33,266 bases of DNA from contig LGFT01000023.1 in the NCBI GenBank assembly GCA_001509375.1, forward strand, positions 1 through 33,266, in the 5' to 3' direction. Under the pieces are notes generated by a model. It ran no database searches, was not told the DNA's origin, and saw nothing but the letters and a program-made list of their open reading frames with translations. Shown piece by piece: positions 13,091 to 17,829 of the stretch. The DNA is from Methanothrix harundinacea. GTDB lineage: Archaea > Halobacteriota > Methanosarcinia > Methanotrichales > Methanotrichaceae. How positions within the stretch are numbered: position 1 is the stretch's first letter; each line of letters opens with the position of its first letter. The position numbers and the translations under genes were made by a program.

Positions 13091-13516
13091 TCAATCATCG
13101 AAGGGCTCCTCCACCTTTCGCCCCTCGAAGATCTCGTGAAAGGTTCTGAGGGACGGCGCCAGGACCCTCGTCTGGCCGATGGCCGAGGCGATGAATAAGA
13201 CGTCCAGGATCTCGTCCCGGGTGGCTCCGGCCCTCAGTGCGGCGTTGATGTGGACCTTGAGGCACTTCTCAGCTCCGGCTCCCGCGGCTGCGGCGATGGT
13301 CACCAGCTCTGCGGTCTTGGCGTCCAAGCTCTCCGGCCTCATGGCGTAGAAGTCCTTGAGGCTTGAGAACACGAAGAATTCGGGCCTCTCCCTCATGATC
13401 CTGAGGATCGGCGGAACGCACCCGAAGAGCTCTTCGCTATCCTCCAAGATGTCCTCCCCCATGGAGTCGGCGCTCTCTAGGAACTTTCGGATCAGGTCTC
13501 TATTTTCAGGCTTCAT
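13091..13516 (-). CDS. Carboxymuconolactone decarboxylase/AhpD-like protein
   Basis: The 141-residue all-helical protein carries the CMD core: E70, then EKCLKVH with C85 and H89, then the ALRAGATRDEILDVL helix. AhpD-type enzymes have CxxCxxxH; here the first Cys position is Ala, so only the second Cys remains and a disulfide peroxidase cycle is unlikely. This one-Cys form is common in archaeal CMD proteins of unknown substrate. The ATG at 13516 has GGAGTGA upstream. It is the first gene of the minus-strand group with cbiK and the two membrane methyltransferase-like genes. Confidence 0.85.
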   Translation of the reverse strand: MKPENRDLIRKFLESADSMGEDILEDSEELFGCVPPILRIMRERPEFFVFSSLKDFYAMRPESLDAKTAELVTIAAAAGAGAEKCLKVHINAALRAGATRDEILDVLFIASAIGQTRVLAPSLRTFHEIFEGRKVEEPFDD

Positions 13517-13701
13517 CGCTGGTCACTCCATCTGGCATACGATAAAACCCATCCGGAGGTTCATTCCGGATGGCTCGTCATTGGGCCCATCGTCCCGGAT
13601 CTATCCGCTCCTCCCCTCTCCTGGCATCTTCCCGACCCTCAAAGCGGAGATGATTCAAAAGTTATTTATCATCAGAAAATTCATTAAGTTTGGAGGTTAC
13701 T

Positions 13702-14223
13702 ATGAATCTAAAGCTAAATGGTGAGAATTGGCCTTTGAATTTGTTCAGTGCTGCTGGACTTACGATGGCGCTCTTGGCCACGGTGAGTCTATGTCTCGCA
13801 TCTCCTCAGGCAGAGGACGACATAAGCCCGTCTATGATCTCCGAGGACGAAGCATCCCAAATGATCATCGACACACTCGTCAAAAATCTGGCCGAGAGTT
13901 CGGAGCTTGAGATGGGCCTCCGAGTCAATCAGTACCAGGATCTGCTGGATGCTGGCACCCAGGTGAGAGAGGCAAACCAGGATGAACTTGAGTCGTCTGG
14001 AGTCCTAGTCTGCCAGAATGCCAGCTGGCTCTTCTTCTTGGACTTGGCCCCCGGTGCTCATTTCGCCCATCCGGTGATAATAGCAGTGCTTGATGCCGTA
14101 ACTGGGGACGTCCAATTCATGGATGGCCAGTGGTGGCCGATCATAATGCAGCCCGCCTTTGAGAACGAGACGGTGAGGCGGGACTCGGAGACTATCATCT
14201 TTGAGAAGGAGCCGAATTTTTAA
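13702..14223 (+). CDS. Secreted protein related to the N-terminal domain of the adjacent peptidase
   Basis: The 173-residue protein has a signal-like hydrophobic stretch at about 17-37 (LFSAAGLTMALLATVSLCLA). Its mature part, from about residue 45, lines up over its whole length with residues 69-198 of the following peptidase. Shared features are an EA/ETA-rich helix, GLRV followed by a QY/QH-D-(L/M)L segment, QNxSWLF, PGAHFAHPV, DA(V/I)TG and WWP. GGAGGT is placed four bases before the ATG at 13702, so the start is firm; a TTG at 13690 is not needed. It ends 112 bases before the peptidase start and is probably co-transcribed with it. A role as free propeptide-like inhibitor or chaperone is a hypothesis. 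Confidence 0.75.
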   Translation: MNLKLNGENWPLNLFSAAGLTMALLATVSLCLASPQAEDDISPSMISEDEASQMIIDTLVKNLAESSELEMGLRVNQYQDLLDAGTQVREANQDELESSGVLVCQNASWLFFLDLAPGAHFAHPVIIAVLDAVTGDVQFMDGQWWPIIMQPAFENETVRRDSETIIFEKEPNF

Positions 14224-14335
14224 GAAAATGGGTGGGGGACCAAAGGATGGTCGCCGTCGTATCTCCAAGGCTGATCCCACGGCAGAAAGACCATCTAGCT
14301 CCCTATGTGATGACGTATTATGGAAGGTCTTTGAG

Positions 14336-16207
14336 ATGAGATCAAATGAATTTCGTAAGTTATTGGCAGCCACGACCTGGGCGGCGACCGTATCTCTGCT
14401 GATCCTATGCCCAGCAGGCCTATCCCTGGGCGCATCCCTAGAATCGACGGACGACGTGAAGGAGACGACCGCCGTCCTCAAAGCCGGCCCTATGCTGAAG
14501 AGAGCTGAGCTGATTCAGACATCACCTGCCATCGGCAGCATGGAACTCCTGAACAAGGAGACGGCTGCCCAACTGGTCCAAAATGCCGTCGTAGCTCCCC
14601 TGTGGGAGCGAGCCGACCAAAGCAAGGGCCTGAGGGTGCTGCAGCACGACGAGATGCTGGCTGAAGGGGTCGTGATAGAGCCGGCCTTTGCCCCCTTGGG
14701 CGGTTCCACCAGGAGGATGGTGGCTCAGAATCAAAGCTGGCTATTCATGATCGACGAGTTGCCTGGAGCCCACTTCGCCCATCCTGTCAAGCTAGTTTTG
14801 GTGGATGCGATCACAGGAGAGCGGCAGGAAATGGAGACCGACTGGTGGCCAAAGGTCAACGATGTCCAGCTTTTCGATACGGAGCCTGCTCGAACCGATC
14901 CAAAACTCACAACCTTTTACATTAGGCCCACCGCTGAGGTGAAGCTCAGCACCTCTTCTGGGGTATTAGGTCAGCTCGAAAGAATCAAGCCCAAGATCAA
15001 CTGCGACGTCTGGGCGGTTCTGGTCTGCGGGTACAATGACCTGCCCGACACCTTCGACGACGATACCAACGGAATGTATAGCGTCCTCAGAAACTTGGGA
15101 GTTCCCGATGATCACATATTCTACGTCAGTCCCCATGCGGGCCATGCAGGTGTGGACAGGCCGACGAGCAGGAGCAACGTCCAGTGGGCCATCAATGAGG
15201 TCGCAGCCCAGTCCGACATCAAGGACAAGGTGCTATTTCTCTACAGCTCTCACGGTAACGTCAACTTTGTATCCTGCGTGCCAGACATCCCGGATGGAGG
15301 TTCTATAACGGCCAGTGAGATGGACACATGGTTGGACGCCATAAGCTGTAAGGAGATGGCCATCATCATAGAGGCATGTCATAGTGGTAGCTTCATAGGC
15401 AAGTACAAGGACGGAACCTACATAGCCGGAGAGAACGAGCTGACCGGCGACGGTGAGACCAACCGGGTGGTTTTCACCTCGGCATCCACTGACACCTCCT
15501 CTTGGCCCGATATCGACGGTGGCTCAGATCCAAACCCGGCGGACACCGGAAGCGAGAGCATATACGGCTACATGATGGCTTTCAGCATCGCCTCTGCAGA
15601 CACGAATGGAGACGGCCGGATATCCTTTGGCGAAGCCCACCAGTATGCTTGGGACAACGACGTCACTCGCATCCTCGGCTGGAATGTGCCCCAACTGATC
15701 GAGAGCGGTCTGAACAAGGCCAACGTCTACCACCAGTGTCTCCAATACGAGTGCTACTCCAACCTTCCAAGCCCCAAGCTGACCTTGATCGGAACCGAGG
15801 ACTATACCACCAGCGGCGGGGAGTATACCAGGTACAAGCTCTCTGTGACCAACTGGAACGCCTATCCTGCAGAGCTGTTCGAATCCGCTCCGGACCTGCC
15901 AGCCTGCGGCCTGAACACAGAGTCCTCTAGGACGTGGGTGGATATCTACGACGACAGTGGAAAACGACTGTACGGCTTCTGCGCTCTGTCGTCCCCATCG
16001 GATCTGCAGAATCTGTGGTTTGCAGTGAAAAAGGGTGAGACACCACCCAAGAGGGTATATGTGGTGCTGAAAGACCGGAGGTGCGATGAGGAGTACACGT
16101 CAAACCAAGTGACTACAGAGCAAAAAATTCTAGCCATCGCTCCCGCGAATATGAACGTGGTCCAGATTAAGGAGCCCATGAGCGTTGTAGGAAAAATGCT
16201 TGCGTAG
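14336..16207 (+). CDS. Secreted caspase/legumain-like (clan CD, C13-type) peptidase with EF-hand-like loop
   Basis: The product has 623 residues from the ATG at 14336, preceded by GGAAGGT; an ATG-less extension to 14201 overlaps the upstream gene and is disfavoured. In order it shows a signal peptide (about 1-32), the domain shared with the upstream gene (69-198), and a clan CD cysteine peptidase domain (about 220-475). The catalytic His is H306 in YSSHGN and the catalytic Cys is C348 in IIEACHSGSF. A calcium-loop-like segment DTNGDGRISFGE occupies 422-433, with D, N, D, S and E at coordinating places. The rest (about 480-620) is a beta-rich domain of adhesion or CARDB style. The arrangement indicates an exported zymogen, perhaps calcium dependent. 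Legumain-type cleavage after Asn/Asp or gingipain-type after Arg/Lys cannot be told apart here. Confidence 0.85.
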   Translation: MRSNEFRKLLAATTWAATVSLLILCPAGLSLGASLESTDDVKETTAVLKAGPMLKRAELIQTSPAIGSMELLNKETAAQLVQNAVVAPLWERADQSKGLRVLQHDEMLAEGVVIEPAFAPLGGSTRRMVAQNQSWLFMIDELPGAHFAHPVKLVLVDAITGERQEMETDWWPKVNDVQLFDTEPARTDPKLTTFYIRPTAEVKLSTSSGVLGQLERIKPKINCDVWAVLVCGYNDLPDTFDDDTNGMYSVLRNLGVPDDHIFYVSPHAGHAGVDRPTSRSNVQWAINEVAAQSDIKDKVLFLYSSHGNVNFVSCVPDIPDGGSITASEMDTWLDAISCKEMAIIIEACHSGSFIGKYKDGTYIAGENELTGDGETNRVVFTSASTDTSSWPDIDGGSDPNPADTGSESIYGYMMAFSIASADTNGDGRISFGEAHQYAWDNDVTRILGWNVPQLIESGLNKANVYHQCLQYECYSNLPSPKLTLIGTEDYTTSGGEYTRYKLSVTNWNAYPAELFESAPDLPACGLNTESSRTWVDIYDDSGKRLYGFCALSSPSDLQNLWFAVKKGETPPKRVYVVLKDRRCDEEYTSNQVTTEQKILAIAPANMNVVQIKEPMSVVGKMLA

Positions 16208-16419
16208 CTGGAGTTCATCCCCAGGGGCTTGATTCGAGAGAATGGTCGGCTGGCCCGATGCCAGTCGATTCTTTCTCATTCACGTTTTTTACATATCGCA
16301 GCTCGGTGCTGGGTGCTTTTTTGACCCATACCTGCAGCTATTTTGCATAGTGAGTTCGGCAGATCTTACAGCATACGAATATCAAAAGCATGTTCAAGAA
16401 CCATCGCAAAGTTCTGCCG
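16208..16419. other. Intergenic region between convergent genes
   Basis: This gap separates the peptidase from the convergent HMG-CoA synthase gene. I see no gene or strong stem-loop in it. Confidence 0.4.
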
Positions 16420-17829
16420 TCAGACGACGAAGTCGTAGCGCCGATACCCGTCCCCTTCGATCTCGACCAGGGCGAACTCTCCCGACGGCGAGATCACGCT
16501 CTCGTTCTTCTCCCCCTCGTGGAGGAGCTGGTAGTCCGCAAGGCCTATCTCGACTCGCTCATTGAGCGTTTTGAGGAATTTTCCCTTGGCCATCGACTCG
16601 ACGCCCTCTCCGACCACCCCCGAGAAGAAGGCGGCAGAGCAGCCGCTCCCGTAGGATCCAAGGCCGATCCGCGTCCCGGGAACGAGGAGGTCCTGCTCCA
16701 GAAGGCTCGCAAGCCCCAGGTATATCGAGCCGGTGTAGATATTTCCCACCACCGACGATATGAGAGTAGAAGGTTTAACCTTCCTTCCGTAGGCCTCCAA
16801 GAACTTTCCAGACTTGGAGAACCTCCTCTTGTAATCTCCCTCGGCCAAGAGGTACTCCTTCTGGCCTTCAAAATCCTCGCTTTTGGGCTCGGGTCCCATC
16901 TCCTCCTCGATCGTCCGCCATCGGGGCAGGTCCCTCCACTCCCGCTGGAATATCGAAGCGGCTGCGTACTCCGCCATCCGGGGGTAGGGAATGTGGAAGA
17001 TGATATGAGATAGATGGTCGGATGTGCATTCGTCATCCGCGAGGCGGATCATCCCTCGGCCAAGGACTCTTTTTTTGTAAGAGTAGAAGGCGCCGTCCAT
17101 CGCCGCCAGGTAGCAGAGGTTGCTGTACTTGCCGTTTACCACGGCGCACTTCATCCCGATAGGCCTAAAGAAGTCGTTCTCGTCCCTGGTGAAGACCCCC
17201 ATGACGGGGTCGAGGACCATAAGCCTCGGGTTCCTTTTGACGAGTAGGGCGACAGAACCTGCCCCCTGGGTGTACTCGCCCGGGGAGTTCAGATCGTACC
17301 GGGCGATGTCCGTCGCCACCACGATCCCGACCCTGCCCCCTCTCCGGCTCGAATCTTCGTAGCCTTCCTCGTCGCCCTCGCCATTCTCCTCTTCCATCCC
17401 CTCCACCCTCAGCCAGTATGCTGCGTTCTCCAGAGCGAAGGTTGCGGCGATGCAGGCCGACTTGAACTCGACGGTGGAACACTCCTGAAAGGAGCCGGGG
17501 CCATAGACACGTTCCAGCATTCCGATGACGTAGGTCCCGATCGCCTTCGCCTCGTCAACGCCGGACTCAGTCCCGATGTAGATCCTCCCCACCTCCTCGG
17601 GCGAAAGGTCGTTTCTCTTCATCAGCTCAAGGACCGAGGATGCTGCCATGGTGGCTGCGTCTTCGTGGGCGTCGGGGACGGCCATCTTCTCAACGCCGAT
17701 CCCCCGGGCGAGCTTCGCGGGCTCAATCCCTCTCGCTTCCGCGAACTCGCCGAGGGTCGATATGAAGAGCTTAGGCACGTGGAGGGCGACGTCGTCTATG
17801 CCGACGGCTGTGTTTGGTGCTAGAATCAT
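16420..17829 (-). CDS. mvaS: Hydroxymethylglutaryl-CoA synthase
   Basis: The 469-residue enzyme condenses acetyl-CoA with acetoacetyl-CoA to HMG-CoA, the second step of the mevalonate route that supplies archaeal isoprenoid lipids. The thiolase-fold sites are present: E88 in GTESGVDEAK, the nucleophile C126 in FKSACIAAT, and H279 in HIPYPRM, plus TQGAGSVALLV. It is longer than the common archaeal form (about 350) and resembles the long eukaryal/bacterial type. A Glu/Gly-rich acidic insert at about 144-165 has low complexity. GAGGAGAT lies four bases before the ATG. A TATA-like GATAAATA sits about 50 bases upstream. It is divergent from the small gene at 17956. Confidence 0.9.
   Translation of the reverse strand: MILAPNTAVGIDDVALHVPKLFISTLGEFAEARGIEPAKLARGIGVEKMAVPDAHEDAATMAASSVLELMKRNDLSPEEVGRIYIGTESGVDEAKAIGTYVIGMLERVYGPGSFQECSTVEFKSACIAATFALENAAYWLRVEGMEEENGEGDEEGYEDSSRRGGRVGIVVATDIARYDLNSPGEYTQGAGSVALLVKRNPRLMVLDPVMGVFTRDENDFFRPIGMKCAVVNGKYSNLCYLAAMDGAFYSYKKRVLGRGMIRLADDECTSDHLSHIIFHIPYPRMAEYAAASIFQREWRDLPRWRTIEEEMGPEPKSEDFEGQKEYLLAEGDYKRRFSKSGKFLEAYGRKVKPSTLISSVVGNIYTGSIYLGLASLLEQDLLVPGTRIGLGSYGSGCSAAFFSGVVGEGVESMAKGKFLKTLNERVEIGLADYQLLHEGEKNESVISPSGEFALVEIEGDGYRRYDFVV

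Follow-up and report, generated by a model that had tools for sequence, protein, structure and literature searches.

Why would a methanogen encode, just upstream of an exported cysteine peptidase, a small exported protein that duplicates the peptidase's own N-terminal domain as a separate product? This question is raised by a locus on contig LGFT01000023.1 of Methanothrix harundinacea (the whole stretch of 33,266 nucleotides that was analysed is referred to below as the window), the features of which are collected in Table 1. Other methanogens have this pair too, and on that ground the probable role of the small protein is to bind and inhibit the peptidase as its dedicated partner.

Table 1. 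Coordinates (window numbering) of the features of the free-domain/peptidase locus
Feature	Position	Strand	Basis or remark
TATA-like A/T-rich stretch TTATTTAT	13662..13669	+	5' of small gene; weak; read from sequence
GGAGGT, ribosome-binding-like	13692..13697	+	5' of small gene, ending 4 bases before its ATG; read from sequence
Free-domain protein P0001, 173 aa, opening with ATG 13702, N-terminal signal-type hydrophobic segment	13702..14223	+	Putative trans-acting regulator/inhibitor
Free copy of shared domain, aa 42-173	13825..14220	+	Fused twin at 14537-14929
Cys104 of free copy	14011..14013	+	Alignment of Methanotrichaceae copies
HFAHP core motif of domain, aa 120-124	14059..14073	+	Alignment of copies
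Exported clan CD cysteine peptidase P0002, 623 aa, opening with ATG 14336, 112 bp past the small gene	14336..16207	+	Pfam, alignment, signal-type segment
Fused copy of shared domain, aa 68-198, propeptide position	14537..14929	+	Genome search, alignment
Caspase/legumain-type catalytic domain, aa 221-473	14996..15754	+	Pfam C13 7e-7, C14 2e-6; PDB profile matches
Predicted catalytic His306 (SSHG)	15251..15253	+	Invariant in 9 relatives
Predicted catalytic Cys348 (EACHSG)	15377..15379	+	Invariant in 9 relatives
EF-hand-like loop DTNGDGRISFGE, possible Ca2+ site	15599..15634	+	Weak Pfam EF-hand; pattern in 9/9 aligned peptidases
C-terminal module, optional	15749..16105	+	Missing from G022 and G545 peptidases; present in other secreted proteins

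The preliminary description of this DNA had proposed that residues 45-173 of the small protein match residues 69-198 of the adjacent peptidase, and both reading frames were found in place, with the two ranges correct within a few residues. When the whole genome was searched with the small protein, only the protein itself and the N-terminus of the peptidase were recovered (the next match had an E-value of 0.32), the latter through an alignment of residues 42-168 to window positions 14537-14920 (127 residues, 36% identical, E 4.9e-23). Within each of six Methanotrichaceae pairs, the free copy is 32-41% identical to the fused one, and this similar identity in all six, together with the purifying selection acting on the free gene (dN/dS of ~0.23 against the nearest relative, G006, the value for the peptidase being 0.15), argues that the resemblance is not due to chance. 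The same observations bear on the most sceptical view of the locus, which is that the free copy is a neutral leftover of a tandem duplication. The adjacency of free and fused copies is what a tandem partial duplication would be expected to leave behind, but a leftover would hardly be kept under selection across Methanotrichaceae pairs, occur repeatedly and independently, or possess its own start and signal segment, and we consider this view the least probable of those discussed here.

By profile comparison, the shared domain belongs to an unrecognised family. No model of Pfam, NCBIfam or PHROGs detects it, and Pfam scans of its copies return no Inhibitor_I29, which leaves it outside that family of propeptide-like inhibitors. 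A PepSY propeptide domain was considered because the domain has DAxTGE at its end and is predicted to run from a helix into strands, and was rejected, as none of the copies matches a PepSY profile in Pfam and PF03413 was not found in 13 genomes, including this one. Profiles of the domain match no PDB chain at meaningful E-values, the prodomain of the gingipain RgpB (family C25) being among the chains covered, and a structure model built from eight usable sequences (one helix followed by four strands, pLDDT of 66) finds no fold match among solved structures.

The one family that surfaced in these comparisons is CueP, a periplasmic copper chaperone, and with it comes the possibility of a metal-sensing domain that tunes the peptidase by binding metal, in cis or in trans. 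The NCBIfam CueP model matches the fused copy of Methanomethylovorans hollandica with an E-value of 0.003, the highest-scoring non-members in a profile search of 4860 ORFs are two CueP proteins, and hhalign probability rises from 10% to 29% (P 0.0006) as domain copies are added, the comparisons having been made with ten real, retrieved CueP proteins. The match, however, spans only about 30-35 columns at a probability below 30%, and is centred on a short stretch, AP..N..HPC, which takes the form AP..N..H(P/D)C in some of the domain copies; an isolated His, Pro and Asp alone come close to being invariant. The M. hollandica copies alone are clearly CueP-like, with an HPCxxH that resembles the HxCxxH of CueP, whereas the window copies score at shuffle level with the CueP profile and lack the Cys/His ligand set (H-x-C-x-x-H and TC). 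Membership in the chaperone family was therefore rejected, a remote CueP link is at best faint and unproven, and a metal-sensing role for the domain seems a remote prospect.

The peptidase itself can be placed at the level of the clan. The proposal that a clan CD His/Cys pair follows the domain proved right, as His306 (SSHG) and Cys348 (EACHSG) lie on a caspase-like core and are conserved in nine relatives, and Pfam C13 and C14 both pass their cut-offs (29.4 bits for a cut-off of 22.8, and 28.2 bits for a cut-off of 21.4, respectively). A profile of the nine relatives matches metacaspase-4 and legumains in the PDB with E-values of ~1e-12, and so legumain (C13) and metacaspases (C14) are sequence relatives of the catalytic domain; unlike the archaeal protein, they contain no relative of its N-terminal domain. 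This domain sits, as had been supposed, where a propeptide would, that is, after the signal segment and before the catalytic domain, although a search for a conserved cleavage site between the two domains identified none. The small protein and the peptidase each display a single signal-peptide-type hydrophobic segment, which is located at the N-terminus. A model of the whole peptidase was unusable (pLDDT of 37). The EF-hand-like loop, which lies 3' of the codon for the catalytic Cys, makes a dependence on calcium possible. Involvement in a defence system was also entertained and set aside, as a generic caspase model was the sole PADLOC match.

How widespread is this arrangement? Profile searches of relatives, of the class and of the phylum Halobacteriota, extended to the class of one distant carrier, identified 23 copies of the domain in 14 genomes of Halobacteriota (13 fused and 10 free). 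Every one of the 13 fused copies, which are found in six Methanotrichaceae, M. hollandica, G121, G704, G708 (two copies), G710 and G714, is directly N-terminal to a clan CD catalytic domain, several of these peptidases being confirmed as C13 by Pfam. As for the free copies, one (in G546) ends at a contig edge, and all nine with complete context adjoin a clan CD peptidase, in at least three archaeal families. In the six Methanotrichaceae with complete context both copies lie side by side in the order free then fused, an order also seen on a plasmid of M. hollandica (pMETHO01), where the free-domain gene (L031 5995-6330), located 5' of a C13 peptidase, is missing from the PLSDB gene table. The preliminary description had named as fatal to its proposal a domain occurring mostly in proteins unrelated to peptidases; in the searches of relatives, class and phylum within Halobacteriota, no copy was found outside a peptidase setting, an exclusivity that also covers plasmid, phage and viral collections. 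An exact-pattern genome scan for bacterial relatives matched the C-terminal module of the peptidase only, and the domain is absent from 19 genomes in the phylum of that bacterial match. A viral origin was discarded, as viral contigs, phages and PHROGs yielded no relatives. Other C13-type peptidases of the phylum are devoid of the domain, which therefore marks one peptidase subset. Export is matched as well, with both partners exported in seven of the nine pairs and neither in the other two. In G121, G704 and G708 the fused copy has no free copy nearby, and the free form must thus be dispensable in some lineages.

Particularly informative is G213 (Methanomicrobia), in which the domain exists in trans only: its gene lies 3 bp 5' of the gene for a peptidase whose sequence begins directly with the catalytic domain. 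That a free copy adjoins a peptidase without the domain supports an interaction between domain and catalytic domain, and it also weighs on three other explanations of the small protein. According to one, the free copy is a homotypic adaptor that pairs with the fused domain and controls dimerisation or recruitment, the active site being left unblocked. CARD-only proteins, for example, pair with the prodomains of caspases. Free and fused copies do share one domain and one compartment, and it is dimerisation by way of N-terminal domains that activates initiator caspases (PMC4357240). In G213, however, there is no fused copy to act as mate, so domain-domain pairing is not the general role, and we regard an adaptor as unlikely.

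A helper in folding or secretion, in which the free copy is an intermolecular chaperone of the catalytic domain and inhibits nothing, would by contrast suit G213, where the domain lies in trans only beside the peptidase, and propeptides are often foldases (PMC6993865, PMC3677877). Wherever a cis copy exists such a helper would be redundant, which is hard to reconcile with the purifying selection on the free copy and with its class-specific residues, and this explanation appears unlikely. Finally, the free copy could be a substrate of the peptidase, or a signal released by it. The two share an operon-like neighbourhood and a compartment, and the G213 locus contains a gene for a radical SAM/SPASM protein, a type of enzyme that modifies peptides. 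That gene occurs at one locus only, though, the free copy has no repeated or conserved cleavage motif, and the peptidase itself contains the domain, all of which makes a substrate or signal very unlikely. Concerning the G213 locus itself (L026 2084-5200), the domain gene, the peptidase gene and the maturase-like radical SAM/SPASM gene (best NCBIfam match TIGR03974, below cut-off) are consecutive on one strand, and the tail of the peptidase has a series of repeated motifs of the CxPxSRxI type, which give this peptidase the look of a peptide-modification target.

A different layout is seen in G710. There the free copy is anchored, and its gene follows that of the peptidase at a distance of 92 bp (the 5' part of the peptidase gene is on a second contig, which overlaps the first with 98% identity across 643 bp). 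This free copy (L125 1794-2618) has an extra region of 110 aa and ends with PGFG and a hydrophobic segment, in the manner of archaeal surface anchors.

The class-specific residues bring us to how the pairs arose. A Cys, Cys104 in the window, is found in all seven Methanotrichaceae free copies, while the six fused copies have Ala or Ser there, which suggests that the free form has specialised; free copies of M. hollandica, G213 and G710 have no equivalent. In trees, the resolution of which is limited by long branches and short alignments, Methanotrichaceae free copies cluster apart from their fused copies, and those of G710 and M. hollandica fall outside the Methanotrichaceae free group. A common origin for the free copies as a whole is rejected (AU p 1.8e-5; p 0.014 in a narrower test), and with it a single ancient duplication. 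These trees are most simply read as showing that the pairing arose repeatedly and independently.

Stand-alone copies of a prodomain beside the corresponding protease are already known; what differs here is the clan, the archaeal host and an unrecognised domain. In Streptococcus pyogenes, the propeptide analogue Spi inhibits the family C10 protease SpeB, and the two genes are adjacent (PMC2873492). The likeness to our locus is a protease gene beside a gene for a propeptide analogue; the differences are that SpeB is a bacterial, papain-like clan CA enzyme, that the domain is unrelated, and that inhibition is experimental there and inferred here. Similarly, Plasmodium has SUB1-ProM, a propeptide-like protein that stands alone, is encoded next to genes for subtilisin-like proteases and potently inhibits SUB1 (PMC6993865). 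Our pair has in common with this system the stand-alone propeptide-like protein, the shared compartment and the syntenic locus, although SUB1 is a serine protease of a eukaryote and the domain is again unrelated. Inhibitors of the I29 type (CTLA-2alpha, crammer, BCPI) are likewise free copies of a cysteine protease prodomain, albeit of another sequence family and with papain-type (clan CA) partners. Among them, CTLA-2alpha relies on a Cys and is able to join cathepsin L through a disulfide (PMC4089206), which offers a parallel to Cys104 of the free copy. Within clan CD, the nearest parallel is offered by the gingipains (family C25), which also have an N-terminal prodomain ahead of the catalytic domain, and for which the part of PMC3677877 drawn on here describes inhibition of the cognate enzymes in trans by the isolated RgpB and Kgp propeptides and, in contrast with the archaeal pairs, reports no natural stand-alone copy.

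By the standards of such stand-alone inhibitors, homology to the N-terminal domain of the protease is present, and adjacency and a matched compartment are found in 9/9 pairs. A clan CD His/Cys peptidase with a free prodomain copy would thus amount to an arrangement like Spi/SpeB and SUB1-ProM, inhibition being what the analogy predicts. The preliminary description had foreseen either an inhibitor or an immunity-like partner. The notion of a partner is upheld, the domain being dedicated to clan CD peptidases and the free copies adjacent to them, whereas the immunity-like half has no specific support, because the peptidase has its own cis copy and no toxin-delivery context was seen.

The mechanism that we propose is as follows. 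The peptidase would be synthesised with the domain placed after the signal peptide and ahead of the clan CD catalytic domain, and a separate free copy would be exported along with it. This free copy would dock on the catalytic domain as the cis copy does and, once the latter has been displaced or cut off, would hold the catalytic domain inactive or set the share that is active. Three steps of this scheme we infer from homology, position and pairing: that the free copy binds the catalytic domain, that it thereby inhibits it, and that the cis copy is removed. On this reading the small protein acts in trans, as a separate version of the regulatory (pro)domain of the peptidase, and restrains the catalytic domain; for and against it we find the scales evenly poised. 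Going further, this would be an undescribed domain family of methanogens, and it may be a dedicated regulator of caspase/legumain-like peptidases that has shifted repeatedly among cis, trans and both, with the Cys of the Methanotrichaceae free form acting on the active-site Cys, a scenario that we put forward tentatively and with some doubt.

If the inhibitor reading is correct, archaea would possess a naturally occurring system in which a stand-alone prodomain inhibits clan CD peptidases. Our literature search found no report of a stand-alone prodomain beside its protease in clan CD or in archaea. To our knowledge, few dedicated protein regulators are known for prokaryotic caspase-like peptidases. 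With a small, conserved and unannotated partner in hand, the control of archaeal clan CD peptidases becomes testable with two recombinant proteins, and the three architectures (cis only, trans only and both) represent a natural experiment in how a prodomain becomes a free inhibitor.

Two minor observations concern the surroundings of the pair. The C-terminal module of the peptidase is also found in small secreted proteins of the genus (L114, L115 and L116), as well as in a long multidomain bacterial protein (L007). In the window (13091-17829), the pair splits a junction between cobalt-chelatase-like/CMD and HMG-CoA synthase genes that is otherwise conserved in the genus. In five congeners the cobalt-chelatase-like and HMG-CoA synthase flanking genes are close together with neither gene of the pair between them, and it is because both are missing at the same junction that the pair appears to be gained or lost as a unit.
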